From Arcobacteraceae bacterium (lineage in GTDB: Bacteria > Campylobacterota > Campylobacteria > Campylobacterales > Arcobacteraceae): a stretch of DNA of 64,000 nucleotides. The DNA is taken from the NCBI GenBank assembly GCA_021107755.1, contig JAIOSF010000002.1, forward strand, positions 1 through 64,000. The letters run 5' to 3'. Each line of letters opens with the position of its first letter. Position 1 is the first letter of the stretch. Shown piece by piece: positions 41,127 to 62,472 of the stretch. A model generated the notes under the pieces. It was not told the origin of the DNA and made no database searches. It was given only the letters and a program-made list of their open reading frames with translations. Both the position numbers and the translations under genes were made by a program.

Positions 41127-41138
41127 TTTAATACCTCA

Positions 41139-46254: not shown

Positions 46255-47328
46255 CTAGTAAAGTTGAGAGATACCATAACTACTACAAATCTTACATAAC
46301 TCTAAATTCTTTTGTTTTGTATTAACAATATTTCTAAATTTTTTATATTTTTCATTGTTCCACACATTTTTAAAATCATCTTCCAGTACATTTCCTAAAA
46401 CATGTTTTCCACACGAATCTTCACAACAGGGTACAACATCTCCATTAGATAATATCACTGTAGAATAATACATCCAAGGACATTGATTCGTATATTTATT
46501 CTTTTTAATCAACTCTTTATTTTCTATAAATTTTGTTTTATCATATGTCCAATATTCTTCATTATTGGGTAAGTAGATTTCACCTTCTTCATAGTTTCTA
46601 ACAACAGGAATTACAATATTAAAACAATCAGCCCCAATATCTTTACAAAAACTTTTAAATTCTTCAACTTCATGCTCGTTGTGTTTCATAACAATAAATC
46701 CAACATCAATCGTAAGCCAATGTGCATTCTTTTCTTTTTTTAAATTGATCGTTTCTTTTAAGTTTTTGAAAACTTTCTCTAAATTTGAATTAACTCTATA
46801 AATTTCATGTGTTTTTTGTGTCATTCCCCCAATTTGAAAAGATATAAAATCTATTTTTGAACTTATTATATCTTCAGCAATTGCAATATCACCATTTGTA
46901 CTTGTTTCTACACGATTAATACCCATTTTTTTTGCATATTGAACTTGTTCTACCCAATCTTTATTAAGGAATGGTTCCCCCATAAAATAATAAATTAAAG
47001 TATTTGTATGAGCATAAACTTGATCTATGATTTTTTTAAAATCATTAGTTTTTAATACCCTCTTAACTCTGTCTAACTTTCCAGCACCTGTTTCACAAAT
47101 TGGACAATTAATATTACAAATATTTGCTGGTTCTATAGTAATTGTTGTAGGTAATCCTATTGTTTTTTCATTATTAAGCATAGAATCAATTGATGCTTTT
47201 AAATGTTCCTTAGACTTCTCTTTAAATTTAATTACATATAAAAGACTAATTAGTAATGCTCTCATTCTTGTATATAATTTATATAATTTTTCATTTGACT
47301 TAAATTTAACTTTTATACTATTGTTCAC
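46255..47328 (-). CDS. Radical SAM/SPASM-domain protein
   Basis: 357 residues. The 4Fe-4S/SAM motif is CNINCPIC (C71, C75, C78) after an N-terminal extension of 60 residues. A C-terminal SPASM region has CPWMYYSTVILSNGDVVPCCEDSCG and a final CKIC, which can hold auxiliary clusters. ETSTNGD and MGEPFLN are typical of this superfamily. The start is GTG preceded by AAAGG. Substrate unknown; a sugar or a lipid-linked precursor is suggested only by context. It is distinct in sequence from the two radical SAM proteins at 52-58 kb. Confidence 0.85.
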   Translation of the reverse strand: MNNSIKVKFKSNEKLYKLYTRMRALLISLLYVIKFKEKSKEHLKASIDSMLNNEKTIGLPTTITIEPANICNINCPICETGAGKLDRVKRVLKTNDFKKIIDQVYAHTNTLIYYFMGEPFLNKDWVEQVQYAKKMGINRVETSTNGDIAIAEDIISSKIDFISFQIGGMTQKTHEIYRVNSNLEKVFKNLKETINLKKEKNAHWLTIDVGFIVMKHNEHEVEEFKSFCKDIGADCFNIVIPVVRNYEEGEIYLPNNEEYWTYDKTKFIENKELIKKNKYTNQCPWMYYSTVILSNGDVVPCCEDSCGKHVLGNVLEDDFKNVWNNEKYKKFRNIVNTKQKNLELCKICSSYGISQLY

Positions 47329-47338
47329 AAAATACCTT

Positions 47339-48925
47339 TTATACTTTTAAAAATTTAGAATATATTATATCTTTTATTTCATTATAATTATTGTGATATA
47401 AAGCATTATTATTAAAATATTCTACATTTTGACTTTTTTTATTTAATAAATTAAATTTTAGACCCTCTAAAGTTGCTACTGCATTTACATATTCTTCATG
47501 AAAAATAGATATTTCATTTTCCCTCAGTATATCTGGTTCTGGTTCATAGGTATAATACGGCTTTGATAAAAATGATGCTTCATAAATCACAGTACTTGCT
47601 GGACCAATCACAAAATCAACTTTATTAATTAAATCTACTAAGTTCTCTTCTTTTATTATATTTTTCGATAGTAATTCATTTTGATAGACTTTAGTATAAA
47701 AAAATTTATTTGCTCTGCCTGGATGTATTTTAAATTTTAAATTTTCTTTTTTGAAACCTAATTCTAGGAGCATATTGATTAAATTTTTATTGATTTCAAT
47801 AATTTGTCCTCTAGAAAAATCATACCTTTCATCAGGTACAAATGGTAAAATCAATATTTTTTGTTCTTTTAAATCTTTTTTAATAACTATATCTTCTTTA
47901 TATTTTTGAATTTCAATAAAACTTGGATAACCAGCAGGGATTACATTTAAATCAATTGATTTATAAAAACTTGTTTCAAAGTTTGACCAAGTTAATACTG
48001 TATTAATATTATCTAACTCTTTAATTTGATGTGTGTATATTATTACACCATGATTATACAAGGCTACTTCACCTTCTATATTATTTAAATATTGTTTAAA
48101 TATACTTGGTATTCTTCCCTCAGGATGAATCAAAATGGCTTTTGTAATATTATATTTTTTTGAATATTTAATAACTGTATCAATGACATATTTTACCTCA
48201 TTCTTTACATATTTATAATGTTTTTTACATATTTCAGAAACTATAGTATTTAAGTCACTATTTTTATCAATATTTAAAGAATAATTTATTCTATTAACTT
48301 TAGATAGTTTTGGCATAAAATATAATGGATTAGATATAGAAAATATTTTTTTTAGATTAACAGGGAGCTGATCTGTCACTATTTTATTGTCAAACTTTTC
48401 CATCAGTTTTATAGTATTAAAATACCCTTGATAAAAACACTTTTGTTGTTGTTTTCTATTTTTTAATAAATTATTTGTTGAGATTATTATTTTTCGTAAA
48501 AAATTTTTAAAAAAATTTTCATGAGAAGACTCATTTATATTACTCAATTCCTGTTCAACACTTTCGTTTAATACTATTAACTTATAAGATATATTCATTT
48601 TTTCCAAAATCTCAAAATAAATACTATCAATATTTATAGAAGTAGACTTATATATATTAATATGACTAGGGTTTACAGACAATACCATCATGATAAAAGA
48701 TATGGTATTTATATTGGAATTAAATAATTCATAACTAATTACTTTACCAATTGAAATATTTTTATAGATAGTGTAATCGTTGCCATCCTTTATAAACCAA
48801 TTTCTAGTTAGATAATCTATTTTTGGTCTCATATCATTAAATTTATCTCTATTAATTAATTCATCAAAATAATATATACCATCTTTTTTTAACAGATACT
48901 CAAAACATATATTTATAGTTTTCAT
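47339..48925 (-). CDS. Large GT-B-like protein, possible CDP-glycerol/sugar transferase
   Basis: 528 residues, not confidently recognised. The C-terminal 250 residues resemble GT-B enzymes of the CDP-glycerophosphotransferase/surface-carbohydrate type: AILIHPEGRIPS, VALYNHGVIIY, HPGRANKFF and FVIGPASTVIYEASFLSKPYYTYEPE, where HPGR and GPxST would face a nucleotide donor. The N-terminal half is Lys/Asn/Ile-rich and unique. It lies between a radical SAM gene and a TIGR04372-like transferase gene. Probable transfer of a sugar or polyol phosphate. Confidence 0.5.
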   Translation of the reverse strand: MKTINICFEYLLKKDGIYYFDELINRDKFNDMRPKIDYLTRNWFIKDGNDYTIYKNISIGKVISYELFNSNINTISFIMMVLSVNPSHINIYKSTSINIDSIYFEILEKMNISYKLIVLNESVEQELSNINESSHENFFKNFLRKIIISTNNLLKNRKQQQKCFYQGYFNTIKLMEKFDNKIVTDQLPVNLKKIFSISNPLYFMPKLSKVNRINYSLNIDKNSDLNTIVSEICKKHYKYVKNEVKYVIDTVIKYSKKYNITKAILIHPEGRIPSIFKQYLNNIEGEVALYNHGVIIYTHQIKELDNINTVLTWSNFETSFYKSIDLNVIPAGYPSFIEIQKYKEDIVIKKDLKEQKILILPFVPDERYDFSRGQIIEINKNLINMLLELGFKKENLKFKIHPGRANKFFYTKVYQNELLSKNIIKEENLVDLINKVDFVIGPASTVIYEASFLSKPYYTYEPEPDILRENEISIFHEEYVNAVATLEGLKFNLLNKKSQNVEYFNNNALYHNNYNEIKDIIYSKFLKV

Positions 48926-48941
48926 ATTATATCATTTCAAA

Positions 48942-50207
48942 TTATCTTAAATTTTTTTCTAATTGAAATAAACAAACTCTACCATTTGCATTAATTCTAT
49001 TTGCATAACGGTAAGCAAGCTCAACATTAGTCCAGTTTTCTGAAAAAAACAATTTTTCTTCTTCTATCCATCTTAATATATTTGTTTCAACTATTTTATC
49101 AAATTTATCATCTAATATAGTTCTTTTTGCGGGTTGTTTTAGATTAGAATACATCTCTTTCACAGCTAAAAGTATTTCTTCTTCTGTATTTTCTATCAAA
49201 TTAAATTTTTCAAAAAATTTATTTAAATAAAAGTCATTTATATTTGTATTTATATACATAGGTTTTTCAAAAATTTCATTGAATGTTAATAATTTATTTG
49301 TTTGTTTATCCTGTATATTAACAAAAAGAGTTCTATCAGAACTCTTATATGCTTTTACTAAACCAAAATCAGAATAATTAACTGCAAGAACAGGTGTACC
49401 AAAGAGAAAAGCTGTATCAAGTATTCCTGAGTTTGTACCAATATAAAACCTACATTGTTTAATTAAAAATAAATCCATTAGTCCTGATTTATATATAGTA
49501 TTTGGATAATCAATAAAATCTTCATTAATATTCATTTTAATTGGATCACCTAATCTTACAACTTTACCACCTAGCTCATTTATATATTTTATTGTTTTTT
49601 CATAGTTTTTAGGTGTAGAATTTCTAAAACTTGCGTTTGTACCTTCATTTCCAAAGTGACTTGTTCTTATATGTAAACATACAAACCAATCATTTTCTTG
49701 AATTCCTAGTGTGTTAAGATTATCCAAACAACTCAATTGAGTCTCTCTTGAAAAATCTAAATCTATTTTTTCCTCATATAATTTAGACCAATGAGTTTTG
49801 TTAACAGAGTCTTGACTGAATGTTTTTAATGATTCAATATTGAACAAATCTTTATGTCCAACTCCAAGATAACTATATTTAAAAGGTCTAGAAATATAAA
49901 GTATATATAAAATTGATTTAATTAATAAATAGATACCAAATATACACCCAAATATTACTCCTAGTATTAAATTAAAAAATTTATTTTTATATATATAAGG
50001 TGATTCTAGTTCATAAAAAGAGATTAATTGGTTGTACCTTAATCTTTTTAATAAAAATTTAAAACATATCCTTTTTCTTGGGAAAATAAGTTGTTTATTA
50101 TTTCGTTTTGCCTTATAAAGAGCATGTAATAATTTTTCTGAAAAATTACCTATATTAACATCATAATCCATAATAAAAAGTATCTTATTTCTAAAAAAAT
50201 TAAACAT
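48942..50207 (-). CDS. TIGR04372-like glycosyltransferase
   Basis: 421 residues, with a membrane-associated hydrophobic segment around 85-110. The C-terminal half has the pattern VCLHIRTSHFG, NYEKTIKYINELGGKVVRLGD, and RFYIGTNSGILDTAFLFGTPVLAVN, which I recognise as that family of GT-B enzymes related to ADP-heptose transferases. ATG start overlaps the nucleotidyltransferase gene by 8 bases. It is the last gene of the radical SAM/transketolase block and the best candidate to transfer its product. Confidence 0.72.
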   Translation of the reverse strand: MFNFFRNKILFIMDYDVNIGNFSEKLLHALYKAKRNNKQLIFPRKRICFKFLLKRLRYNQLISFYELESPYIYKNKFFNLILGVIFGCIFGIYLLIKSILYILYISRPFKYSYLGVGHKDLFNIESLKTFSQDSVNKTHWSKLYEEKIDLDFSRETQLSCLDNLNTLGIQENDWFVCLHIRTSHFGNEGTNASFRNSTPKNYEKTIKYINELGGKVVRLGDPIKMNINEDFIDYPNTIYKSGLMDLFLIKQCRFYIGTNSGILDTAFLFGTPVLAVNYSDFGLVKAYKSSDRTLFVNIQDKQTNKLLTFNEIFEKPMYINTNINDFYLNKFFEKFNLIENTEEEILLAVKEMYSNLKQPAKRTILDDKFDKIVETNILRWIEEEKLFFSENWTNVELAYRYANRINANGRVCLFQLEKNLR

Positions 50208-50922
50208 ATTTTATCCCTTCTATTTGGGCTAATGCATAACTTTCAATAGTTCCTATATCCCTATGATATACATCGTTTAAATATGTATTAATTTTACCCA
50301 TAAAATGGGGAAGAACATCATTACTAAAATCTATATCTTTCTTATTTAAAGATTCTAAAAAGTTAAATATTGATGCTTCACAAATGTATACTGCACCATT
50401 TGCTAAATTTGAAGGGGGATTTTTCACTTTTTCATGAAATTTTTGAACAACATTATTCTTATCTAACTCCACGATACCACAGCTAGATGGGTTGTCACTT
50501 TTAAATAGCATCATAGTAATATCACAATTTTTAGGTCTATTTTTATGAGAATAAATAAAGGCAGTAAAATCACATATTGTAAAATTATCAGCATGTATTA
50601 ACATAAATGGCTCATTATTGTCTGACTTTTTATTCATAAAAAAGCTTTTATTAGCTAAAAGCGTTCCTCCTGTGTTTAAAAGTTCCTCTTCATGCACCAA
50701 TGTCACTATATCTTTATATTGACTATCATTAATATAATTTTCTACTTTATTTGATAAGTAAGAAGTATTAACAAGTATTTCTTTAATACCAACTTTAGAT
50801 AAATTTTCAATCCAATATTCTAAAAGTGGTTTTCCATTTATTGGTACTAAACATTTTGGTATAGTATTTGTAATAGGTCTTAATCTTGTACCTAGTCCAG
50901 CAGCTAACAATAAAGCTTTCAC
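50200..50922 (-). CDS. Sugar-1-phosphate nucleotidyltransferase (HddC-like)
   Basis: 240 residues: KALLLAAGLGTRLRPIT, PKCLVPINGKPLLEYWIENL, NTGGTLL, LIHADNF and HRDIGTIESYALA. This short form without a C-terminal beta helix is typical of HddC (GDP-heptose) and other NDP-sugar synthases. The start is GTG, overlapping the stop of the kinase-fusion gene by one base. With a kinase domain and a GmhA-like isomerase in the same neighbourhood, a heptose-1-phosphate substrate is plausible. Confidence 0.83.
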   Translation of the reverse strand: MKALLLAAGLGTRLRPITNTIPKCLVPINGKPLLEYWIENLSKVGIKEILVNTSYLSNKVENYINDSQYKDIVTLVHEEELLNTGGTLLANKSFFMNKKSDNNEPFMLIHADNFTICDFTAFIYSHKNRPKNCDITMMLFKSDNPSSCGIVELDKNNVVQKFHEKVKNPPSNLANGAVYICEASIFNFLESLNKKDIDFSNDVLPHFMGKINTYLNDVYHRDIGTIESYALAQIEGIKYV

Positions 50923-52391
50923 TATAATAATTCTTTCTTCAATTCTTCTATATTTAATGGTAAATTACCAACTCTACCAACTTGTGTTGCTGCCGCTAAA
51001 GAACCAATATAAATACTTTCAAATACACTTAAACCAGAAACTATTGCCATCGATGAAGAAATAAGTAAAGAATCTCCTGCACCTGATACATCTTTTGGTG
51101 AAGAATTTAATGCTGGTATTTGATCTGTAAACCATTTATCTTTACTATTATCATTTTTATCCGCATGGATTAAAACACCTTCTGAACCAAGAGTAATAAA
51201 TATATTTTTGATTTTTGATTTTTGCCTTAATTTTTCAGCTAAAATAATTAGACCAGATTCAAAGTCATTAAGTGCCAATCTAGCTTCTCTTTCCGTAGGT
51301 GTAACTAAAGTCATATTATAAAATTTTGATATATCTCCAGTTTGTGATGATGATTGACTATCTGCTACCATCATAATATTGTTTTGTAGAGCTAAATTTG
51401 TGATGTTATTAATTAAACTTTGTGGTAAACATCCATAACTAAAGTCTGAAAAAACAATTAAGTCTTTTTCTTTAATTGTCTTTTCTAAATCACTCATAAT
51501 TTCATTTTGGATATCTTTATTTATATGGTGTTGTTTTAGATGATTCACTCTTAAAAGAGTTTTACCGTTTGCACGAAAACGCTGTTTTAATGTAGTTGGT
51601 CGTGTACTATCCTTATAAATATATCCATTAATATTATAAGCATCTAATTTTTCTTGAACTATTTTTGTATTTTCATCATCTCCAAGTACAGTGATAAAAT
51701 CTACATTTGCACCTAAACTAGAAGCGTGAGCAGCAACTATTCCAGCTCCTCCTAAAAATATATCTGAAGATATAGGGGTTACAACAATTGTTGGATCTTC
51801 TTGACTCATACCAAGAGGTTCACAAGTTTTATATTCATCTACTATAGTATCTCCAATAACCAAAACATTTAATTTACTAAATGTATCCAAAGTTTTAATT
51901 AATTTTTTTGAATCAATATTATTTCTTTTTATATAGTCCATTGGTTTATGGATATTTGAAGTATCTAAAGTTTTAAATTCCTTTTGAAGAAGAGATAATG
52001 AAGAAAAACGAATATCCCCTGAACTAAATATTAAATTTCCACCATAAGATTTAACAACATCTAATTCACCATTAAATTTATCTTCATGTTCATTTCCTTT
52101 TACAACAATATCAGGTTTTAATTTTTTAATAAACTCTAAAACATCTATATCTATTACAAATGAATAATCTACAAATAAAGAATAGTTTAAAGCTTCCAAC
52201 CTTAACTCTGAGTCAATTAAAATATCACCACTTTCATTTCCCTCTAAAGCTACAACTAAGAAATCACCATTATCTTTTGCAAATTTTAATAATCTTAAAT
52301 GACCCGGATGGAGAATATTGAATTTACCAGATACAAAGACTACTTTTTTATTCTTAGAAAGTTTTTTAATATTATTAATATGTTGATTCAT
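50922..52391 (-). CDS. Fused cytidylyltransferase-PfkB sugar kinase (HldE-like parts, reversed order)
   Basis: 489 residues. Residues 15-145 form a nucleotidyltransferase of the HldE-C/TagD type (SGKFNILHPGH, with HPGH at 28-31; VVKGNEHE). Residues 160-489 form a PfkB/HldE-N-type kinase (LVIGDTIVDEYKTCEPLGMSQEDP, FLGGAGIVAAH, catalytic D440 in DVSGAGDSLL). In HldE the kinase comes first, so the order is swapped. Both halves keep their key residues, so a bifunctional enzyme phosphorylating and activating a heptose-like sugar is likely. The next gene encodes a second nucleotidyltransferase, so the first half may have another substrate. Confidence 0.85.
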   Translation of the reverse strand: MNQHINNIKKLSKNKKVVFVSGKFNILHPGHLRLLKFAKDNGDFLVVALEGNESGDILIDSELRLEALNYSLFVDYSFVIDIDVLEFIKKLKPDIVVKGNEHEDKFNGELDVVKSYGGNLIFSSGDIRFSSLSLLQKEFKTLDTSNIHKPMDYIKRNNIDSKKLIKTLDTFSKLNVLVIGDTIVDEYKTCEPLGMSQEDPTIVVTPISSDIFLGGAGIVAAHASSLGANVDFITVLGDDENTKIVQEKLDAYNINGYIYKDSTRPTTLKQRFRANGKTLLRVNHLKQHHINKDIQNEIMSDLEKTIKEKDLIVFSDFSYGCLPQSLINNITNLALQNNIMMVADSQSSSQTGDISKFYNMTLVTPTEREARLALNDFESGLIILAEKLRQKSKIKNIFITLGSEGVLIHADKNDNSKDKWFTDQIPALNSSPKDVSGAGDSLLISSSMAIVSGLSVFESIYIGSLAAATQVGRVGNLPLNIEELKKELL

Positions 52392-52399
52392 AAGTTTCT

Positions 52400-53509
52400 C
52401 TAAATAAAATTAATATGGTTTGGTATTTGCCCAGTGGGTTTCTCTAAACTTATATTTTCTTTTTGTAATGCATCTAAATATTCATTTGGTTTATGTTGCA
52501 AACATAAAGAACCACACATTTTTTGAGCATCGAAATTAGGTGAGGCCAAATAATTCATAACTTCCCAATATCTATCACTGTTAACAATATCTTTAAATCT
52601 AGTTTGTGTAATATTACCAATGTGAAATTTTTTATATTTTTCATTAAATAACATTCCACAAGGAGCTACAAGTCCTGATCCTGACATTTGAATCTGAAAA
52701 GGTGGTCCATAACATCTTTGGTAACTTCGTTTTCCCTCAGCATTGATTTTAGACCATTTAACTACAACTTGGTACTCATCATCTGAATAAGTTTCTGCTT
52801 CTTTTAATAAATCCTGTAATTCAGCATATTTAGAATAGTCAACTCCTAAATCACCCTCTTCACTATCACTCGTATGTTTTATTACAACATAATCAGGACG
52901 GATTTTTTTACCAAGCTTTGCTAGAGGAATAATCTGGTCACCATCTTGTGGCATTAAAACCATTTGCATACCAATTGTAACATCTAAATTTAATCGTTTT
53001 TTAATTTCCATCATATCTACAATATTATCACATACATCATCAAAATATGACTCTTTCACACCCATAATTTCAGAGTATCTTTTAGGTTCACCTGCAGAGA
53101 AATTTACACGTAAATAAGTTAAGTGAGGTAAAATTTTTTCTAAATCATCTTTTCTTGTGTTCCATCCATGTGTAGCTACAGCCATTGAAATACCAAGTTC
53201 GGAACCTTTTATAATAGTATGTACATAATCAGGATGAATAGAACTTTCTCCATCTGAAACTAAACTAATAGCTTTAACTCCCATTTCAGCACAATCTTCA
53301 AGAAAATTATCAATTATTTCTTTGGTAATTTCAAATCTATCATTTTCTTGTAATCTTGCATAACAAAAACCACATCCATAATTACAAGCTCTTGTTAAAG
53401 ACATATCTATTGTAATTGGAGCTATTCTTTCTCCATTTAACCATTGTTGTACACGCTCACCATGCCAAGCTAATTTAGTACCATCTAAGATCAGTTCTTT
53501 ATTTTTCAT
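52400..53509 (-). CDS. Radical SAM enzyme of the transketolase block (copy 2)
   Basis: 369 residues. CNYGCGFC (C42, C46, C49) binds the SAM cluster. SLVSDGESSIHPD and VATHGWN line the barrel. Later cysteines include RCYGPPFQIQMSGSGLVAPCG and MCGSLC, giving a SPASM/twitch-like auxiliary-cluster region. The protein ends in PNHINFI, and the copy at 56.5 kb ends in NNHVNFI; both also begin with an H-x2-RV-x2-W pattern just before the core, so they are paralogues. Likely a redox or epimerising step on a sugar; substrate unknown. Confidence 0.88.
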   Translation of the reverse strand: MKNKELILDGTKLAWHGERVQQWLNGERIAPITIDMSLTRACNYGCGFCYARLQENDRFEITKEIIDNFLEDCAEMGVKAISLVSDGESSIHPDYVHTIIKGSELGISMAVATHGWNTRKDDLEKILPHLTYLRVNFSAGEPKRYSEIMGVKESYFDDVCDNIVDMMEIKKRLNLDVTIGMQMVLMPQDGDQIIPLAKLGKKIRPDYVVIKHTSDSEEGDLGVDYSKYAELQDLLKEAETYSDDEYQVVVKWSKINAEGKRSYQRCYGPPFQIQMSGSGLVAPCGMLFNEKYKKFHIGNITQTRFKDIVNSDRYWEVMNYLASPNFDAQKMCGSLCLQHKPNEYLDALQKENISLEKPTGQIPNHINFI

Positions 53510-53511
53510 TT

Positions 53512-54231
53512 TTAGTTCTTTCTTTTTCTGTTAGCATCTTGTTTTTCAACAAACATAATTTCTAGTGAAAATCCCAATTCTTTACTTATGCTTGTTTCCA
53601 TATCAAAAAGTAATTTAGCAAGAGAAGGGTATATCTCTTTATCTGCAAAAAATTCAACGCGCATATCTCCAATTAGTTTAATGTCATAATTATCTATATT
53701 ATTTTTTTTACAAAAAGTAGCTATATTTTCAGACACTATATTTTCTCTTTCTTTTATATCTAAGTTTTTCCACTTTGTTATTGCGTTTGGACTATAAGTA
53801 TTTACAATAGGTTGATAATTTTGAGTTTCGCAATATTGTTTATATATGTTTCTAATTAAATGTAATGGCGTTTTAAAAATTTCACAACTATTAGATGGCA
53901 TTATAACACCTTTAATACTATGTACCATAGAATCATCTCTTAGTAAATTTTCTAGTCTCAATACACTATGATCTTGTGCTTCTAAAATTGGTAGTCCTCT
54001 AATAATCTCACAAAAGGCATTCATTACACCCTGAAGATATTTATCATTATTAGATATATCAAATACAGCATTATCAATGACATGTGAATTTGGATTAACA
54101 CTAATCGTAAGTTCACATCCATTTTCTATTTCTTTATATTCTATACATTGATTACATTTATTGTAATTAGTGTTAATATGCTTATCATTATATAACAAAA
54201 TATTTTTTTCATAAATTTTTATATTTTTCAA
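53512..54231 (-). CDS. Unrecognised Cys-containing protein of the transketolase block
   Basis: 239 residues, no family recognised. Seven cysteines: C26 and C29 form CNQC, then 39, 74, 116, 134, 174. The middle part (ISVNPNSHVIDNAVFDI, NAFCEIIRGLPILEAQDHS) weakly recalls Fe-S scaffold (IscU/NifU-like) domains, but this is by eye only. The start is TTG with AAGG seven bases upstream. It is wedged 3 bases from a radical SAM gene and 18 bases from the transketolase gene, so it should act in the same pathway, perhaps as a cluster or electron helper. Confidence 0.6.
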   Translation of the reverse strand: MKNIKIYEKNILLYNDKHINTNYNKCNQCIEYKEIENGCELTISVNPNSHVIDNAVFDISNNDKYLQGVMNAFCEIIRGLPILEAQDHSVLRLENLLRDDSMVHSIKGVIMPSNSCEIFKTPLHLIRNIYKQYCETQNYQPIVNTYSPNAITKWKNLDIKERENIVSENIATFCKKNNIDNYDIKLIGDMRVEFFADKEIYPSLAKLLFDMETSISKELGFSLEIMFVEKQDANRKRKN

Positions 54232-54249
54232 TTTTTTGCCTTATCTTAA

Positions 54250-54741
54250 TTATTTACATCTTAAATATGTTGGACCATTATAATCAAACATCTCTTTTAT
54301 ATCATTTTTGAGTGTTTCATTAGTAGGTGCAAAAATTTTAAAATTTTTAAATATCTTCATCATTTTTATATCATCATCATCCATGCAATGACTTCGTCCA
54401 AGTGTACTAAAATAATTGTCTGCGCCAACTCCAACTAGTTTTATATTCATTTGATGCTCATTTAAATCATATCGAATTTGCTCGTAAGCTCTCATAACTA
54501 AAAATGGAACTTGAGAATACACAAGAGGTTTTAATCCTGCTAAATACATACCAGCACTCATGCTAATTGTTGCTTGTTCACAAATTCCCGTATTAAATGT
54601 TCTATTTTTATGATTATAGAAAAAATCATCAAGAACAGCAAATCCCATATCTCCAACTAAAAGACTCATACTCTCATCATCTTTAAAGTATGTGTATATT
54701 TCAGCCATCACTTCTTGTTTTGTTGCTAATTCATTTACCAT
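54250..54741 (-). CDS. Transketolase-like Pyr-domain subunit, minimal
   Basis: 163 residues, covering only the pyrimidine-binding ThDP domain: LVGDMGFAV, FNTGICEQATISMSAG with the catalytic Glu (E55), VYSQVPFLVMRAYEQIRYD, and GVGADNYFSTLGRSHCMDDDD. It ends at GPTYLRCK, where ordinary split transketolases continue for another 130-140 residues (the C-terminal domain). The stop is followed by another gene, so nothing continues in another frame. I use the ATG at 54741; a GTG two codons earlier is open too. It works with the PP subunit upstream. Confidence 0.85.
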   Translation of the reverse strand: MVNELATKQEVMAEIYTYFKDDESMSLLVGDMGFAVLDDFFYNHKNRTFNTGICEQATISMSAGMYLAGLKPLVYSQVPFLVMRAYEQIRYDLNEHQMNIKLVGVGADNYFSTLGRSHCMDDDDIKMMKIFKNFKIFAPTNETLKNDIKEMFDYNGPTYLRCK

Positions 54742-55525
54742 TGTCACAACCTAAAATATATCCATCCTGTGTTGGACATCTAAAATGATGAGATATTGAA
54801 TCTTCACACATTTTTATACCTTTTCCTTTAATAGTGTCACATACAATAATTGATAACATGTCATTTTTATTATTAAAAAATTTACCCATAGATTCTTCTA
54901 GCAAAACCTCATTGTGTCCATCTATTTGATGAAAATTATCAGTGTATGCATTTAAAACTTTAGCAAGTCTATTATTATCCAATCCGACATCTTCTACTCT
55001 ATCCATAGCTTGCAATCCATTTCCATCTACAATTAAAAGTAAATTATCAAGTTTAAATCTATAAGCTAAAGATAAGGCTTCAAAATTACTACCCTCTTGC
55101 ATCTCCCCATCACCAACAACACATACAACTTTATTATCTTTTCCTTGCATTTTAAAGGCTTGTGCTATACCTACTGAAATTGGTAACCCATGTCCCAAAG
55201 AACCTGTTGAAGCTTCAATCATATAATCTAAGTTTTGAGTTAAGCACCCTTTGATACTAGCACCATTATAGAATGTTTCTAATTCATTATCTGGTAAAAA
55301 TCCAAGTTCATTTAATATAACATAGTATGCATAAGCACCATGTCCTTTGCTAAAAATCAATCTATCTCTGTCATTATCTTGAGGATTATTTATATTATAC
55401 TTTAAGAATTTTCCAAAAAGAGTTGTAAGCATTTCCACACAAGATAACGACGGAGCTAAATGACCTGCGCCAGTGTTACATGACAATGCAATAGTTTTTT
55501 TTCTTATATCAGAGCTATTTAACAC
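54731..55525 (-). CDS. Transketolase-like PP-domain subunit (N-terminal half)
   Basis: 264 residues forming the ThDP pyrophosphate-binding domain: SKGHGAYAYY, SLGHGLPISVGIA, and the ThDP motif GDGEMQEGSNFE ending about 30 residues later at DGN (138-169). The start is GTG with AGGAG upstream, inside the end of the epimerase gene. With the Pyr subunit it forms a two-gene transketolase-type enzyme, moving a two-carbon unit between sugars in known relatives. In this setting it could make a seven-carbon or branched sugar for the neighbouring kinase and nucleotidyltransferase. Confidence 0.9.
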   Translation of the reverse strand: MLNSSDIRKKTIALSCNTGAGHLAPSLSCVEMLTTLFGKFLKYNINNPQDNDRDRLIFSKGHGAYAYYVILNELGFLPDNELETFYNGASIKGCLTQNLDYMIEASTGSLGHGLPISVGIAQAFKMQGKDNKVVCVVGDGEMQEGSNFEALSLAYRFKLDNLLLIVDGNGLQAMDRVEDVGLDNNRLAKVLNAYTDNFHQIDGHNEVLLEESMGKFFNNKNDMLSIIVCDTIKGKGIKMCEDSISHHFRCPTQDGYILGCDNGK

Positions 55526-56515
55526 TTATTTTTCTCCTAAACATTCAAACCAATCTTTTGTAGCTTCATTTATACTATCTTCATCCCACACAGGAGCATC
55601 CCTCCACTGTTCTATGTTTTCAAGCATAATTTGAACACCATTTTCAAATGTAACTTTTGGAAACCAGTTTAGTTTTTCTTTAATTTTAGAGATATCAGCA
55701 TAAGTACAATCTGGTTCACCTGGTCTTTTTGGAATATATTTCTTATTACCACCTAAAAGCTCTACTAAATAATTAATACTATAAGTATTATCACTTCCTA
55801 CATTAAATATTTCACGAACATAGTCACTTTGGCTTGCCGTATAACAAGCATCAACAACATCTGTTACATAGGTAAAATCTCTTGTTTGTTCACCATCTCC
55901 AACAATTGTTAGTGGTTTGTTATTTAATAGTTGTGCTAAAAACACACCAAAAACTGCACCATATGTACCACTAGTTCTATGTCGAATTCCATATACATTA
56001 AAAAATCTCATAGATACTACTGGCATATCATAAACTAATCCCCAATGCATTACATACTGTTCACCAACAGTTTTTGTATGGGCATAAGGATATTCTGGCT
56101 TAATAGGACTTGTTTCAGGAGTTGGATATACTTCAGGAATGCCATAACATGAACTAGATGCCGCATAAACAAACTTTTTAAGATTCTGAGATTTTTTTGA
56201 AGCTTCTAAAACATTAATAGTTCCATCAACATTTGCTTTATGATAAGTTAATGGGTTGTTTATTGATGGTACTATATCTGCTAAAGCAGCATAATGAAAG
56301 ACATAATCTACATCATGAAAATACTCATCTAAGTTTATATTATAATCACCGATATCTATATTTACAAATCTTATAGAACCTTTATGATGCTCAATATTAT
56401 CTAGTCTACCATTAGCAAGATTATCAATAACTGTAACCTCATAATTCTTTGATACAAGAAGATCTACCATATGTGATCCAATAAAACCTGCGCCACCCGT
56501 AACTACTACTTTCAT
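55526..56515 (-). CDS. NAD-dependent sugar epimerase/dehydratase
   Basis: 329 residues of the extended SDR family: VTGGAGFIGSHM (5-16), HYAALADIVPS, SSSCYG, YAHTKTVGEQYV (catalytic YxxxK), RFFNVYGIRHR and RDFTYV. General UDP-glucose 4-epimerase/GDP-sugar type; a 4-epimerase, 4,6-dehydratase or decarboxylase cannot be distinguished. It sits between a radical SAM gene and the transketolase genes. Confidence 0.85.
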   Translation of the reverse strand: MKVVVTGGAGFIGSHMVDLLVSKNYEVTVIDNLANGRLDNIEHHKGSIRFVNIDIGDYNINLDEYFHDVDYVFHYAALADIVPSINNPLTYHKANVDGTINVLEASKKSQNLKKFVYAASSSCYGIPEVYPTPETSPIKPEYPYAHTKTVGEQYVMHWGLVYDMPVVSMRFFNVYGIRHRTSGTYGAVFGVFLAQLLNNKPLTIVGDGEQTRDFTYVTDVVDACYTASQSDYVREIFNVGSDNTYSINYLVELLGGNKKYIPKRPGEPDCTYADISKIKEKLNWFPKVTFENGVQIMLENIEQWRDAPVWDEDSINEATKDWFECLGEK

Positions 56516-56524
56516 ACTTAACCT

Positions 56525-57619
56525 TTAAATAAAATTTACATGATTATTTGGGTTTTTAAGATCCCATAAATAACGATTTACTTCATCCATTCTACAATTT
56601 ACTCTACAATTTTTTATATCTAATTCATTTTTAACATATTCATATGATTCTTTTCTTTTATCACCTTCCCAAATGTCTTGAAAACTATTATTATATATAT
56701 TACCATAGCAAAATTTATCTTCTCCAAGATATGCACTACAACCAAAAACTTTTCCATCAGCAGCTATATATCCCCAAAAAAATGGAGTCGAGTGACATTT
56801 ATCATAAGGCTGTTTCTTTTCAACATGTTTTTGCATTGTATTCGCCCTAAATACTACATGAAACTTATCATCATTAAACTTTTTTAACTCTTCACCAACA
56901 TACATCATTTTACTATAATCTATATTAGCATATTTATCTGTTTCGCTAAAAATATGTTGAGAATATGGCTTAACGACAAGATAGTCAATGCCCATATCTT
57001 TGCATTCTTTTGCTAAAATTTCCACCTCATCTTTATTTTCTGGAAGTAAAAGCATTTGTACACCCAGAGTACATTTTAAATTATTTTTTCTTTTATATTC
57101 AAGTGCATATTTTAAGTTACTCATAACTCGTTCAAAATCTTTTTCAGTCGTTTGATGAATTTCTGCATAACTTTTTGCAGTACCGGCATTTAAACTAACT
57201 TTTATCCAAGAACAGTTCTCCATACATCTTTCAATATTCTTCTTATTTAATGGCACAAAATTTGTTGTTAATGAAGTATCTATACCTACTTTAGAACAAT
57301 GTTCTACAATCAAGTCTAATCCTTTAAAGAGCAAAGGCTCACCTTCTCCTGCAAACATCACACTCTTAACACCTTTTTCAGCCATATTGGTTAATGTATT
57401 TTTTAATGTATCAAATTCTAACCCAATATTTTCATAGCCCATATAATCTAATGCACAAAATGTACATCGATGATTACAACCACCATACGGAGATACCTCA
57501 ACATATATCGGATAAACTTTCTTTAGTTTTTCCCAATCATCACCAGCTTCATACCACTTTGATACTCGTATTGGATGAAATATTAATTTATGACTATCTA
57601 TACTGAATTTGTCACTCAC
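56525..57619 (-). CDS. Radical SAM enzyme of the transketolase block (copy 1)
   Basis: 364 residues. CNHRCTFC (C48, C52, C55) is the SAM cluster motif; FAGEGEPLLF, TTNFVPLNKK and KVSLNAGTAKSY follow. C-terminal cysteines (YDKCHSTPFFWG, VFGCSAYL, KNCRVNCRMD) suggest an auxiliary cluster. It ends in NNHVNFI, like its paralogue 3 kb downstream. The start is GTG with AAGGAG seven bases upstream. First gene of the 50-kb run after a 118-base gap. Confidence 0.88.
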   Translation of the reverse strand: MSDKFSIDSHKLIFHPIRVSKWYEAGDDWEKLKKVYPIYVEVSPYGGCNHRCTFCALDYMGYENIGLEFDTLKNTLTNMAEKGVKSVMFAGEGEPLLFKGLDLIVEHCSKVGIDTSLTTNFVPLNKKNIERCMENCSWIKVSLNAGTAKSYAEIHQTTEKDFERVMSNLKYALEYKRKNNLKCTLGVQMLLLPENKDEVEILAKECKDMGIDYLVVKPYSQHIFSETDKYANIDYSKMMYVGEELKKFNDDKFHVVFRANTMQKHVEKKQPYDKCHSTPFFWGYIAADGKVFGCSAYLGEDKFCYGNIYNNSFQDIWEGDKRKESYEYVKNELDIKNCRVNCRMDEVNRYLWDLKNPNNHVNFI

Positions 57620-57737
57620 AAAATCTCCTTTTAAAAAAAATACTTTTACTATTCACTACAATTATTATTTTAATTTATAACCCTTTTTAACTTTTATAAA
57701 AAATAATTACTTCTTTACTAAAACATAATATTTAACA
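57620..57737 (-). promoter_or_regulatory. Spacer before the radical SAM/transketolase block
   Basis: 118 bases of extremely AT-rich DNA between the GmhA-like gene and the first radical SAM gene, the largest break in the minus-strand run. TATAAA on the minus strand (57674-57679) could be a -10 box. No terminator hairpin with a T-run was found, so readthrough from upstream is possible. Confidence 0.25.
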
Positions 57738-58307
57738 CTAAACTTGTCTTTTATCGATATAATATGAATAAATCATATGATCTAAAATCATATGCATATC
57801 TTCAACGAGACCATAATTGCCTGCACCAGTTTCAACATGAAAGTTTATATCACTTAACTTTTTAAGCTCGCCTCCACTAAATCCAGTTATCCCAATAACT
57901 GTTGAGCCAATATTTTTAGCATAATTAACTGTTTTTGTAATGTTAGGAGAATTTCCACTACAAGATATCGCAATAACGACATCTTCTGGTTTTAAAATAC
58001 CTTCAAGTTGCATATAAAAAATATTTTCAAATCCAATATCATTAGCAATTGCACTTGTTACTGCTGAATTATCACCTAAACTTACTATATTGAAATTTAT
58101 TATTCCTCTTCTTCTTAAACCTACACCTAAATCATTTGCCATATGAGATGCCGTTGCTGAACTTCCTCCATTTCCTACTATATAAATTTTTGCATTATCA
58201 ACTATTGTTTTTTCTAGTCTTTGTATTATTTTATCAATATCATCATAATTAATATTATCTAACATATCTTTTAAATTTTTTGTATACATTTCAAAAAAAT
58301 CTTTCAC
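57738..58307 (-). CDS. SIS-domain sedoheptulose-7-phosphate isomerase-like protein (GmhA-like)
   Basis: 189 residues, one SIS domain. IYIVGNGGSSATASHMANDL is the GmhA signature; SLGDNSAVTSAIANDIGFE, SCSGNSPNITKTV and VEDMHMILDHMIY (Glu/His region) also fit. GmhA isomerises sedoheptulose-7-phosphate into D-glycero-D-manno-heptose-7-phosphate, so it links to the transketolase, kinase and nucleotidyltransferase genes downstream. The start is GTG with AAAGGGAG upstream and a TATAAT box further up. A general LPS copy of gmhA, or another sugar-phosphate isomerase role, is possible. Confidence 0.85.
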   Translation of the reverse strand: MKDFFEMYTKNLKDMLDNINYDDIDKIIQRLEKTIVDNAKIYIVGNGGSSATASHMANDLGVGLRRRGIINFNIVSLGDNSAVTSAIANDIGFENIFYMQLEGILKPEDVVIAISCSGNSPNITKTVNYAKNIGSTVIGITGFSGGELKKLSDINFHVETGAGNYGLVEDMHMILDHMIYSYYIDKRQV

Positions 58308-58397: not shown

Positions 58398-59627
58398 TTA
58401 TAAAGTAATTTTATTTTTTTCTTTCCAAATGGGTTGCTTTAATTCCCATATTCCATTCTTTTTATCCCAAAGATGTGGGGACCTAAATTTTTCAATTGCA
58501 TCATGATAATCTTGTAAAGAAATATCCATATACTCACAACAATCTTTTATATACTGTTCTGGAAATTCTCCATCAAATCTTTTTATAAGGGCAATTCCCT
58601 CATCCCTAGTAATATCTCCATTTCTTATCTCTTGCGCTGAATCATATGTTGCTCTACCAATTCCAAATTTAATAGTTGTAGTATGATAATGTAACCAATC
58701 AATTTTATCATCTAAAGAGCTATATTTACTGAAACTTCCTTCTGTTCTATGATCATTTGGCATAAAATCACTATTTTCAACAGAATAATAATATGTTTCT
58801 TGAGGATGCCATTTTACATAGTATCCTAAATAGTGAACCTCTGTTCCAGTTTTTTCTATTTCGTAAGGATTAACAGGGAAATATGCTTCCAAATCTGATA
58901 GTTTATAACCATATTTATTTAGAAGTTCATCCGCTGACACTCCTCCTAAAACAAGATCTTTAATACTTAATTCTGCACTATAGTACTTTGGATCTCTTGT
59001 TGGTTTTTCATTATCTTCAATGGCATTTCCATATTCTGCTTCATTTTCACCAAATATAACAAGAGGAATATCTAATAAAACTGACAATCTAGGAGCAAGG
59101 TTTTTTTGTCCTAAAATAAAAGGTTGAAACGGATGCCCTAGGTTCAAAAATGCACTTTTTGTTAAAAACCTATGTAATTTTTTATTTTGATTATAGGTAT
59201 AGTTGGCAAACCCAGCATTTAACCAAGAATCAAAGTTTCTTCTACCTATTTCTGTATATAATGCTGGTGGCCAAGTTATTAAAATAGGATTCATATTATA
59301 CTTATATTTCAAAATATGTGCGGCTTGTACACTGTCTTTACCACCACTTCCTGGAACTACAACATCATATCGTCCATCATCTCTTCTGAATTTATTACAT
59401 AATTCCTCTAACTGTTCATGTCTATCTTCCCAATTTATAGATTTTTTCATCTCTGCATATCGACAAGCTTCACAGATACCATCTTCACCAAAAGCTAATG
59501 TTCTTTTGGTCTCACCCTCTTTTTGTTTAAATTCTACTGTAGAAGATGGTCTTTGATTATTCATTGTACATTTTTTACAAAACTTAACTTCTAATGGTAA
59601 TCCATATTTACCAAATAATTCACTCAT
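58398..59627 (-). CDS. PseA/PtmG-type N-acetyl sugar amidotransferase
   Basis: 409 residues. PP-loop ATPase with PGSGGKDS (92-99), and two CxxC pairs near the N-terminus (C17/C20, C52/C55) likely to bind a metal. NWEDRHEQLEELC and FGENEAEYGN are typical of the PseA/WbpG family. Such enzymes use ammonia delivered by a HisH/HisF-like pair to convert a sugar N-acyl or keto group to an amidino group (acetamidino in pseudaminic or legionaminic acids). hisH and hisF lie directly upstream in the transcript. Confidence 0.88.
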   Translation of the reverse strand: MSELFGKYGLPLEVKFCKKCTMNNQRPSSTVEFKQKEGETKRTLAFGEDGICEACRYAEMKKSINWEDRHEQLEELCNKFRRDDGRYDVVVPGSGGKDSVQAAHILKYKYNMNPILITWPPALYTEIGRRNFDSWLNAGFANYTYNQNKKLHRFLTKSAFLNLGHPFQPFILGQKNLAPRLSVLLDIPLVIFGENEAEYGNAIEDNEKPTRDPKYYSAELSIKDLVLGGVSADELLNKYGYKLSDLEAYFPVNPYEIEKTGTEVHYLGYYVKWHPQETYYYSVENSDFMPNDHRTEGSFSKYSSLDDKIDWLHYHTTTIKFGIGRATYDSAQEIRNGDITRDEGIALIKRFDGEFPEQYIKDCCEYMDISLQDYHDAIEKFRSPHLWDKKNGIWELKQPIWKEKNKITL

Positions 59628-59638
59628 GCTATCTCTCC

Positions 59639-60241
59639 CTACAGTTCAACAAAATTTTTAAACAGTTTAATACCAGCTTCTCTACTTTTTTCAGGATGAA
59701 ACTGCACTCCAAATATATTATTTTTTTGTATAGATGATACAAATTTATGTCCAGCATAATCTGTTAGAGATACAATATTTGTATAGTTTACAACTTCAAA
59801 AGAATGCATAAAGTAAAACTCTTCATTTTCTATCCCCTTTAGCAATACATTTTGAGAGATCATTTCTAATGTATTAAATCCCATATGTGGAACTTTTGCA
59901 TCTACTATTATAGGCTTTACTTCTGCTTTTATAGCATCCAAACCTTGACTCTGACCATATTCAAAACCTAAAGTTGAAAGTATTTGCATACCTAAACATA
60001 TTCCTAAAGTAGGTTTATGTTTTATCTCTTCTTTTAAGGTGTTCAATAAATCATCATTCTCAAGTTCTTGCATGGCATCTTTAAAACTACCAACACCTGG
60101 AATTACTATTTTTGATACTTCACTAAATTCTTTTTTATTATTTATAACTTTAGCAATACCACCAGCTTTTTCTATTGCTTTTTTTATACTGTGAATATTC
60201 CCCGCTATTCCATAATTTACAATACCGATTAAATTACTCAT
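59639..60241 (-). CDS. hisH: HisH-like glutaminase of a sugar amidotransferase
   Basis: 200 residues, class I glutamine amidotransferase with the full triad C82 (LGICLGMQIL), H182 and E184 (VQFHPEKS). Releases ammonia from glutamine for a synthase partner. The ATG overlaps the HisF-like stop as ATGA. The gene is beside a PseA-type ligase and nonulosonate genes, and no other his gene is near, so it most likely serves sugar amidation rather than histidine synthesis. Confidence 0.9.
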   Translation of the reverse strand: MSNLIGIVNYGIAGNIHSIKKAIEKAGGIAKVINNKKEFSEVSKIVIPGVGSFKDAMQELENDDLLNTLKEEIKHKPTLGICLGMQILSTLGFEYGQSQGLDAIKAEVKPIIVDAKVPHMGFNTLEMISQNVLLKGIENEEFYFMHSFEVVNYTNIVSLTDYAGHKFVSSIQKNNIFGVQFHPEKSREAGIKLFKNFVEL

Positions 60242-60993
60242 TGTGATACCTCAATACCATTTTTACTTAAATACTCTTTAATATCTTTAATTGTATATTC
60301 ATTATAATGTAGCAAGCTAGCTATGGCAACACCACTTGGTCTAGCATTAATAATTAGTTCTTTTATATCTTCAAGTTTACCTGCACCACTAGCTACAACT
60401 ACCGGTATATTTACAGCCTCTACAACTTGTTTAGACAATTCTATATCAAATCCTCGTTGTCGTCCATCACAATCTACAGATTGCAACAAAATCTCACCTG
60501 CACCTCTTCCTTCTACTTCTTTCACCCACTCTAATACATTTTTTTTACTTTGTATTCTTCCACAATCTGTATAACATTCCCAGTAGTTATCCCATTTTTT
60601 AGCTTCAATATTCACTACTACTGCTTGACTTCCAAAAATTTCAGCTGCTTTATCGATAATACTAGGATCTTCTTGTACAGCATAGGTATTAAGAAGTACT
60701 TTGTCCGCACCTATATGAAACAATTTTGACATATCTTCTATTGTTTTAATTCCCCCACCTACACCAAATGGTATAAATAAAGTATTAGCAGCTTTTTCAA
60801 TCTCATCAAATAATATTTCTCGTTGATACAGTGAAGCAACTATATCTATATACATAACTTCATCTGCACCTTGATCATAGTATTTTTGAGCTAAATTAAA
60901 AGGAAAGTCTATTTTTCTCAAACCTTCAAAATGAACTGGTTTTACTACATAAGGTGGCTTCACATCTAATTTTGCTATAATTCTTGTTCTCAT
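60238..60993 (-). CDS. hisF: HisF-like subunit of a sugar amidotransferase
   Basis: 251 residues, a beta-alpha barrel close to imidazole-glycerol-phosphate synthase cyclase (IIAKLDVK, GGGIKTIEDM, FGSQAVVVNIEAKK, GAGEILLQSVDCDG). Of the two catalytic aspartates of true HisF, the first (D10 here, D11 in HisF) is kept, but the second (D130 in the Thermotoga enzyme) is E130 here. This fits a copy that has lost PRFAR cyclisation and only channels ammonia to a sugar ligase. It also differs from ordinary HisF in the final loop. Confidence 0.9.
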   Translation of the reverse strand: MRTRIIAKLDVKPPYVVKPVHFEGLRKIDFPFNLAQKYYDQGADEVMYIDIVASLYQREILFDEIEKAANTLFIPFGVGGGIKTIEDMSKLFHIGADKVLLNTYAVQEDPSIIDKAAEIFGSQAVVVNIEAKKWDNYWECYTDCGRIQSKKNVLEWVKEVEGRGAGEILLQSVDCDGRQRGFDIELSKQVVEAVNIPVVVASGAGKLEDIKELIINARPSGVAIASLLHYNEYTIKDIKEYLSKNGIEVSQ

Positions 60994-61007
60994 TACTATA
61001 CCATCCT

Positions 61008-61778
61008 TTATATAGAAAATCCATCATCTACAATAATATTTTGTCCATTAACATACTGACTCATTTCACTAAGTAAATATACTAATGTCCCTTTTAAATC
61101 TTTACTTTCTAACATACCTTTGTTCAAACACTCTTTTTTATATTTATTTAAAAATTCTTCTGGCTGTGTATCTAAAATCCCACCAGGACTTATAGTATTT
61201 ACTTTTATATTCATTCCTTTAAAATATTTTGCCATATACTTTGTAAGATGAATAAGTCCAGACTTAATTGCTGCATATTCAACTGGCATAGTCATCTGTG
61301 TATTTTCATATATATCAAACTTAGGTGCCACTACTCCATATATAGAGGATATATTGACAATGTTACCATAATTTTGCTTTTGAAAATATTTTGCAAATTG
61401 TTGAGAAGCTGTAAAATAACCTCCAAGATTAAGCCCTAAGTTTTCTACAAAACTATCGTATTCTACATCAAAAAAATGTTTTCCATAGTTTTTATTTCGT
61501 GGATATGCATTGTTTACTAAAGCATCAATTCGTTGATATTTTTCATTTAAAAAATCTATACAATTCTTTAAAGACTCTTTTGAAGTAATATCAAGTTGTA
61601 TAAAATCAATATTTTTAGTATTTAATTCTCTTGATAAAAACTCTTTTGCTTCTTTACCTATCTCCTCATTTATATCAGCAATTATTGCAATTCCGTTATT
61701 TTCAACAACAGCCTTAACAAACTCTTTACCAATAAGTCCAGCCCCACCTGTTATAACTACTACTTTATCTTTAAGCAT
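61008..61778 (-). CDS. ptmA: Short-chain dehydrogenase, PtmA-like
   Basis: 256 residues, classical SDR: TGGAGLIGKEF (10-20), NNAYPRN (in place of NNAG), NISSIYG and YAAIK (catalytic Tyr/Lys). Resembles PtmA, encoded beside ptmB in Campylobacter and linked to supply of the GlcN precursor for CMP-legionaminic acid; the exact reaction is not settled. It overlaps the cytidylyltransferase gene by 8 bases. Confidence 0.8.
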   Translation of the reverse strand: MLKDKVVVITGGAGLIGKEFVKAVVENNGIAIIADINEEIGKEAKEFLSRELNTKNIDFIQLDITSKESLKNCIDFLNEKYQRIDALVNNAYPRNKNYGKHFFDVEYDSFVENLGLNLGGYFTASQQFAKYFQKQNYGNIVNISSIYGVVAPKFDIYENTQMTMPVEYAAIKSGLIHLTKYMAKYFKGMNIKVNTISPGGILDTQPEEFLNKYKKECLNKGMLESKDLKGTLVYLLSEMSQYVNGQNIIVDDGFSI

Positions 61779-62472
61779 TCTTTTCCTTTATTAAAAACTC
61801 TACAAATTTATAGTCTAATTCAGTATCAATATCTATTGATCTCTCTTCTGGCATCACATATAATCCAGTATTATCTAAAAATAATGAATTTTCATTTAAA
61901 ATAATTTCTCGTTTCCATATATAGATTGAAGCATTCATATCATAGCTTTTGGGAACATCTTGGCGTCTCACAATGGTACTATCTAATGTTTTAGATAAAT
62001 AAACTTTTCCACCACTATCTTGCTCCACAAGATTAAAATATGGACTTCTTCTACTTGGCATCGCTGTTATTAAATTATCATTATCATTTTTTATAAACTG
62101 TTCAAAAGAGTTAATAATATCTTCCATATCTCTCAATGGTGCTGTAGCATCTAAATCAATAAGATAATCAAATTTTGTATTATAATACTCTTCACTTCTT
62201 TTAAAAGCATCTTTAATCACATCAATTTTTCCAGCTGTATCAGATGCCATAGTTGCATCTCTTTTAAAAAAAACCTCTGCTCCATATTCTTTAGAAATTT
62301 TTGCTATATCATCAGAATCAGTACTTATAACAATATGTTCAAATAATTTAGAATTTTTAGCTTGCTCTATTGTATGAGCAATCAATGGTTTTCCAGATAA
62401 TTCTTTTATATTTTTATTTTTAACACCTTTTGAGCCACCTCTAGCACAAATTGTACACAAAATTTTATTCAT
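61771..62472 (-). CDS. ptmB: CMP-nonulosonate cytidylyltransferase (PtmB/LegF-like)
   Basis: 233 residues: the acylneuraminate cytidylyltransferase signature ICARGGSKGVKNKNIKELSGKPLIAHTI, then STDSDDIA, DLDATAPLRDM and RSIDIDTELDY. Activates a 5,7-diamido nonulosonic or sialic acid with CTP. The ptm/leg-like gene order suggests legionaminic acid, but pseudaminic or sialic acid cannot be excluded from this part alone. Confidence 0.87.
   Translation of the reverse strand: MNKILCTICARGGSKGVKNKNIKELSGKPLIAHTIEQAKNSKLFEHIVISTDSDDIAKISKEYGAEVFFKRDATMASDTAGKIDVIKDAFKRSEEYYNTKFDYLIDLDATAPLRDMEDIINSFEQFIKNDNDNLITAMPSRRSPYFNLVEQDSGGKVYLSKTLDSTIVRRQDVPKSYDMNASIYIWKREIILNENSLFLDNTGLYVMPEERSIDIDTELDYKFVEFLIKEKNA

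Follow-up and report, generated by a model that had tools for sequence, protein, structure and literature searches.

Several described systems come close to parts of the locus reported here. The pathways to GDP- and ADP-heptose (GmhA, HldE or HddA, GmhB, HddC) share with it the logic of isomerase, C1 kinase and nucleotidyltransferase, and the kinase of the block is, like that of HldE, of the PfkB type. Unlike the heptose enzymes, the block members score below the model cut-offs and the fusion order is reversed, and the block adds a split transketolase, two radical SAM enzymes and a protein that we call P5. The lincosamide octose pathway, whose genes are tabulated in PMC12945683, offers a second comparison, by analogy only, in that an isomerase, a kinase, a nucleotidyltransferase, an epimerase and an aminotransferase serve a higher-carbon sugar from a C–C transferase. 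Unlike the block, it has neither the radical SAM pair nor P5. It reportedly relies on a transaldolase and a kinase of a different family. Third, the Carboxydothermus split transketolase carries its PP and Pyr domains on separate chains, and the catalytic and cofactor residues of ChTK-C include Glu55 and Phe80 (PMC7661550).

Organisation of the block

The window, as we call the whole stretch analysed, is 64 kb of contig C8 in a genome of 2.62 Mb. Nine closely packed genes had been claimed in the initial annotation, and all nine open reading frames were found at 48942-57619 on the minus strand, spaced by 0-18 bases or overlapping by 1-17 bases. Pfam and NCBIfam supported the family calls for eight of the nine, with the orphan at 53512-54231 left without a family match. 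The last gene of the operon encodes a TIGR04372 glycosyltransferase (48942..50207; 157.7 bits against a cut-off of 45) and had been counted as a block member; it is a variable tail, adjoining the block in just a few relatives. At the other end, the GmhA-like gene that had been noted just upstream belongs to the unit. This SIS isomerase gene (57738..58307, minus strand; SIS_2 of Pfam, 3.9e-20) lies beyond the range first read and opens the conserved unit.

Downstream of the isomerase, and on the same strand, come rSAM1 (56525..57619; Radical_SAM and SPASM), a radical SAM enzyme with one auxiliary-cluster domain of the twitch type; EPI (55526..56515; GDP_Man_Dehyd/Epimerase), an NAD-dependent sugar-nucleotide epimerase-type SDR of the GalE/LegB type; and TKN (54731..55525; Transketolase_N, 1.7e-25) and TKC (54250..54747; Transket_pyr, 1.8e-11), the ThDP (PP-domain) chain and the pyrimidine-domain-only chain of a split transketolase. 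They are followed by P5 (53512..54231; TTG start with AAGG upstream), a protein of NifU/IscU fold with a KH-like part; rSAM2 (52400..53509), a twitch-type enzyme of the radical SAM/SPASM family; CTkin (50922..52391; CTP_transf_like and PfkB), an HldE-like nucleotidyltransferase domain followed by a PfkB kinase domain; and NTase (50200..50922; NTP_transferase, 4.3e-37), a sugar-1-phosphate nucleotidyltransferase. The gene families match those of a dedicated nucleotide-sugar route, as first proposed. Promoter and terminator scans gave no signal over chance level.

The best PDB match of TKN was 6yak (2.5e-33), the N component of the Carboxydothermus enzyme, and its GDG...N motif is invariant. In TKC the catalytic E57 and F82, which correspond to Glu55 and Phe80 of ChTK-C, are invariant in 22 of 22 sequences. 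PP and Pyr domains with their ThDP ligands thus lie on two adjacent chains with the same cofactor residues, as in a split-type transketolase (6yak; PMC7661550). Unlike in Carboxydothermus, the Pyr chain is encoded in a glycan operon and has no third domain: TKC, at 165 aa, lacks the transketolase C-terminal domain, Transket_pyr being its sole Pfam match, and the TKC chains of other loci with a transketolase-type block are of similar length. The motif SSSCYG...YxxxK is conserved in about 50 epimerase sequences (ASSSCYG), the TDE triad of 4,6-dehydratases is absent from the same family, and the nearest PDB entries to EPI are the GalE-like 6dnt and 4zrm.

The surroundings of the block are those of a polysaccharide locus, which runs from 7.4 kb of the window on, with Wzx/Wzy-like, CDP-glucose and Rml genes as read from the translations. 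Upstream of the block, 58398-63990 holds genes for proteins like PtmA, PseF/LegF, PtmE, a WbuX-type amidotransferase and HisH/HisF, a nonulosonate set (legionaminic or pseudaminic type) in which an amidino or amido transfer step is likely. A third, distinct radical SAM protein is encoded at 46255-47328, preceded in its operon by a 528-aa protein (47339-48925) with zero Pfam matches. Further along, at 40179-42530, an AlgJ-like protein adjoins, as judged by eye, an MBOAT-type acyltransferase, the two being a probable glycan O-acylation pair.

Recurrence of the unit and exchange of its thiamine enzyme

Among 298 genomes of the class, an rSAM2 search gave a match in 12. Six genomes besides the one containing the window have a close homologue (63-79% identity), and its neighbours are again rSAM1, the epimerase, TKN, TKC, the CTase-PfkB fusion and NTase. 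Searching the same genomes with TKN yielded close orthologues (E <= 1e-100) in eight, the next match being weaker by 57 orders of magnitude; rSAM2 adjoins in seven of the eight. In the eighth, G134, the block occurs twice in a variant form (L122, L123), with another SDR, a methyltransferase and a zinc alcohol dehydrogenase in place of the epimerase, P5 and rSAM2. This comparison indicates a backbone of GmhA, rSAM1, TKN, TKC, CTase-PfkB and NTase, with the remainder being exchangeable tailoring. One of the G134 copies adjoins a gene for a Maf flagellar glycosyltransferase.

The block is conserved across several Campylobacterota families and in Pseudoalteromonas, in the order GmhA, rSAM1, epimerase, split transketolase, P5, rSAM2, CTase-PfkB, NTase. 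The gene set thus recurs in other genomes, as the initial annotation had anticipated, but not as a frozen unit: P5, the epimerase and rSAM2 are missing or replaced in places. A different cassette was seen in L027, L028 and L029. It has an rSAM1 orthologue (53-55% identity) and more radical SAM genes, and the second chain of its split transketolase, at about 290 aa, is of full length. In L029 a methyltransferase gene follows TKC, and no CTase-PfkB gene lies nearby in L027-L029.

Scanning some 85,000 species genomes turned up 272 rSAM2 relatives, and P5 adjoins rSAM2 in nearly all of the best 80 loci, mostly at a distance of up to about 100 bases. Neighbours were counted in the 40 loci whose flanks reach 8 kb or more on each side of rSAM2, so that the counts are conditioned on rSAM2. 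P5 and CTase-PfkB are each present in 38 of these 40, a two-chain thiamine enzyme in 37, the epimerase in 29 and the SIS isomerase in 26. The thiamine enzyme is of the transketolase type in 14 loci and of the pyruvate-dehydrogenase-E1 type in 24, with both types together in one locus only. In the transketolase-type loci rSAM1 is found in 11 of 14, compared to 0 of 24 for the E1 type; each of two PseC/DesI-like aminotransferases occurs in 19 of the E1-type loci. Of the 14 transketolase-type loci, 11 have a GmhA-like gene no more than 10 kb from rSAM2, mostly directly before rSAM1; in the transketolase-type loci that were mapped, NTase directly follows CTkin. On the rSAM2 tree the thiamine-enzyme type changed at least four times, which indicates that this enzyme was swapped around a constant core of P5, rSAM2 and kinase.

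Block genes are often closer between genomes than SecA of the same genome pairs, pointing to horizontal transfer; that they have diverged unequally shows gene-wise shuffling besides transfer of the block. In L031-L033, rSAM2 is 91% identical to that of the window and the adjoining CTase-PfkB just 57-58%, a sign of single-gene replacement inside the block. Plasmid and phage searches returned one Azospirillum plasmid and otherwise just distant homologues. Carriers of the cassette range from SAR11 and Azospirillum to Myxococcota and Campylobacterota. Culturable environmental strains are among them: Malaciobacter halophilus DSM 18005 and Pseudoalteromonas rubra have the block, and Azospirillum oryzae has the E1-type version. 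As metagenome bins make up many of the records, isolated odd taxa are not to be trusted.

Surface-glycan loci are recombination hot spots, P5, EPI or GmhA is absent from some loci, and gene identities are uneven; these genes might then be scattered pieces of a rearranged polysaccharide locus with no joint pathway. We consider this highly improbable. The same neighbours recur in the 40 full-flank loci across many phyla, contradicting the scatter without co-occurrence that had been named as grounds for refutation, and the TKN search, which was not conditioned on rSAM2, shows co-occurrence as well. Likewise, when the class genomes were searched with a profile of P5 itself, full-length members were found only beside rSAM2.

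The radical SAM enzymes and P5

Seven cysteines are invariant in 89 of 89 rSAM2 sequences, CxxxCxxC plus four auxiliary ones spaced much like those of BtrN, and in rSAM1 C48/C52/C55 and C275/C294/C338/C342 are invariant in 24 of 24. A count of four auxiliary cysteines agrees with a twitch site, a SPASM domain having seven. The rSAM2 profile matches the auxiliary-cluster region of BtrN (BtrN 168-241, E 5e-4), a dehydrogenase in which the twitch-site cluster is fully ligated (PMC6231123); rSAM2 likewise has a single auxiliary site with a full set of cysteine ligands. The nearest structures to the AlphaFold (AF2) model of rSAM2 (mean pLDDT 89.7) are DesII (Z 24.3), BlsE (24.2) and SkfB (23.4). 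DesII and BlsE act on sugar nucleotides or sugar nucleosides. The predicted fold favours a sugar nucleotide as the rSAM2 substrate. With BtrN, DesII and BlsE, rSAM2 shares the fold and, we suspect, substrates of the sugar type, but at about 13-16% identity in structural alignment it forms a separate subfamily, one with a NifU-like partner.

In fold score the peptide maturase SkfB is effectively level with DesII and BlsE, and peptides are often modified by SPASM/twitch enzymes. We therefore considered a peptide- or protein-modifying rSAM2/P5 pair that sits in glycan loci by chance, and judge it very unlikely. Sugar-enzyme partners accompany rSAM2 in 38 of the 40 loci, SkfB is no nearer to it than DesII or BlsE, and in an unsystematic look no precursor-peptide-like gene was noticed.

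P5 had been labelled a Cys-containing protein, but its cysteines are not conserved. In the family (39 sequences) no cysteine occupies an invariant or near-invariant column, and the three cluster-ligand cysteines are absent; His88 and a C-terminal KDxNxxR-like motif are kept. The P5 sequence alone had no match in Pfam, NCBIfam or the PDB, and its kinship with NifU surfaced because the family alignment and the predicted fold were used. Single family members match NifU models, down to 1.8e-6. In the AlphaFold (AF2) model (mean pLDDT 92.5), residues 5-143 are predicted to adopt the IscU/NifU fold (Aquifex IscU, 2z7e: Z 11.5, 121 residues, 3.5 A), and residues 152-231 weakly resemble KH-like domains (Z about 8). 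P5 thus shares with the IscU/NifU/SufU scaffolds the fold over residues 5-143, but differs in lacking conserved cluster cysteines, in having an invariant histidine (H88) that lies, judged by eye, near the position of their last cluster ligand, and in the added KH-like domain. With no conserved cysteine in the family, P5 is probably not a classical scaffold. Its adjacency to rSAM2 makes it a probable partner that assists this enzyme.

The P5 profile also gave weak hits in about 98 further class genomes, mostly to the NifU part and in frames of about 330 aa; from coverage and frame length these are probably housekeeping NifU. Apparent P5 fusions of 535-1136 aa were rejected: the P5 match is confined to about the last third, no other block family is present, and the extensions are probably upstream read-through in GC-rich DNA. 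In L022, L036, L038, L041 and L042, P5 is reduced to its C-terminal KH-like part (92-104 aa) in front of rSAM2, and this lone remnant suggests that the KH-like domain is the essential one. We tentatively propose that P5 and rSAM2 form a new type of radical SAM pair, in which an Fe-S scaffold devoid of ligands has become a dedicated partner, and that a sugar pathway in wide exchange may be built around this pair; the swap between transketolase and pyruvate-dehydrogenase-type enzymes would then decide which two-carbon donor the pathway uses.

Relation to heptose biosynthesis and a candidate pathway

The isomerase, kinase and nucleotidyltransferase of the block score well under the curated heptose models: 99.8 bits against a cut-off of 209 for the GmhA-like gene (TIGR00441), 197.7 against 345 for CTkin (TIGR02198) and 95.6 against 300 for NTase (HddC model NF049965). 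In CTkin the CTase domain (residues 20-110) precedes PfkB (175-475), the reverse of the kinase-then-adenylyltransferase order of HldE, and the HPGH (H28, G30, H31) and GAGD motifs are conserved in 31 subfamily members. A missing GmhB had been taken as a possible sign of departure from GDP-heptose. This argument from absence fails, since the genome has a GmhB in trans on contig C28 (G000:C28:103151; TIGR00213, 188.7 bits, over the cut-off). A second GmhA lies at G000:C28:103741 and a canonical kinase-first HldE on contig C22. As the genome keeps its own GmhA, GmhB and HldE, the block isomerase and kinase constitute a second, dedicated set.

Such a set could be an ordinary second route to GDP- or CDP-heptose, in which the transketolase supplies sedoheptulose 7-phosphate and the radical SAM enzymes decorate the heptose; the association of GmhA-like, HldE-like and HddC-like genes and the GmhB available in trans agree with this. 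We nevertheless regard it as unlikely. All three genes fall far under the heptose cut-offs, the kinase fusion has the reversed domain order, and sedoheptulose 7-phosphate is already made by the housekeeping transketolase and would not be expected from an E1-type enzyme.

Our preferred reading, which we consider fairly probable, is that the unit at 50200-58307 moves by horizontal transfer and encodes an undescribed pathway that makes one nucleotide-activated sugar for a surface glycan. From gene content, motifs, predicted folds, co-occurrence and the thiamine-enzyme swap we infer its reactions, their order and its product. The GmhA-like isomerase would supply an aldose phosphate, which the CTase-PfkB fusion would phosphorylate at C1; the nucleotide could be attached by the same fusion or by the HddC-like NTase, and the GmhB encoded elsewhere in the genome could take off a terminal phosphate, if any. 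Transfer of a two-carbon unit by the two-chain thiamine enzyme would then yield a sugar that has more carbons or is branched. Finally, rSAM1 and rSAM2, the latter with P5, may carry out radical oxidation, epimerisation or rearrangement at carbinol carbons, and the SDR would epimerise the sugar nucleotide. This order (isomerisation, C1 phosphorylation, nucleotide transfer, two-carbon addition, radical and epimerase tailoring) appears the likeliest. An E1-type product would be a 1-deoxyketose, unusable by GmhA, so the two-carbon step cannot simply lie ahead of GmhA in all variants. Since E1 and transketolase are interchangeable and the acetyl product is unusable by GmhA, we lean towards a later branching or extension step. 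Against the proposed pathway stand the absence of GmhA and EPI from some loci, the SkfB tie in fold and the unequal divergence of the genes.

A more specific form of this pathway, possible though doubtful, has rSAM1 or an SDR make an NDP-sugar ketone to which the thiamine enzyme adds a glycolyl (transketolase) or acetyl (E1) branch, with the DegT pair aminating later in E1-type loci. The scheme is simple in making the two enzymes interchangeable at one step, two PseC/DesI-like aminotransferases are present in E1 loci, and a BtrN-type cluster site fits dehydrogenation (PMC6231123). On the other hand, the sugar ketone and the acceptor are hypothetical, and GmhA would then be needed for the early steps only.

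A FliD gene lies near the block in L020 and a Maf gene in L123, where the sugar of the proposed pathway probably decorates flagellin; the block of the window lies in a polysaccharide locus. Full-text searches of the open literature, judged by titles and abstracts of the matches, found no description of this gene combination. PMC2147049 was considered as a prior description and set aside, its radical SAM gene being a different one. We conclude that the cassette is real and widespread and, within the open literature searched, undescribed. In its general logic it resembles known nucleotide-sugar pathways; its most surprising features are the pairing of P5 with rSAM2 and the thiamine enzyme that can be swapped. 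If our reading is right, it would add a route that forms C–C bonds and uses radical chemistry to the bacterial repertoire of surface sugars, and P5 would be a family-wide partner whose role with a radical SAM enzyme is directly testable.
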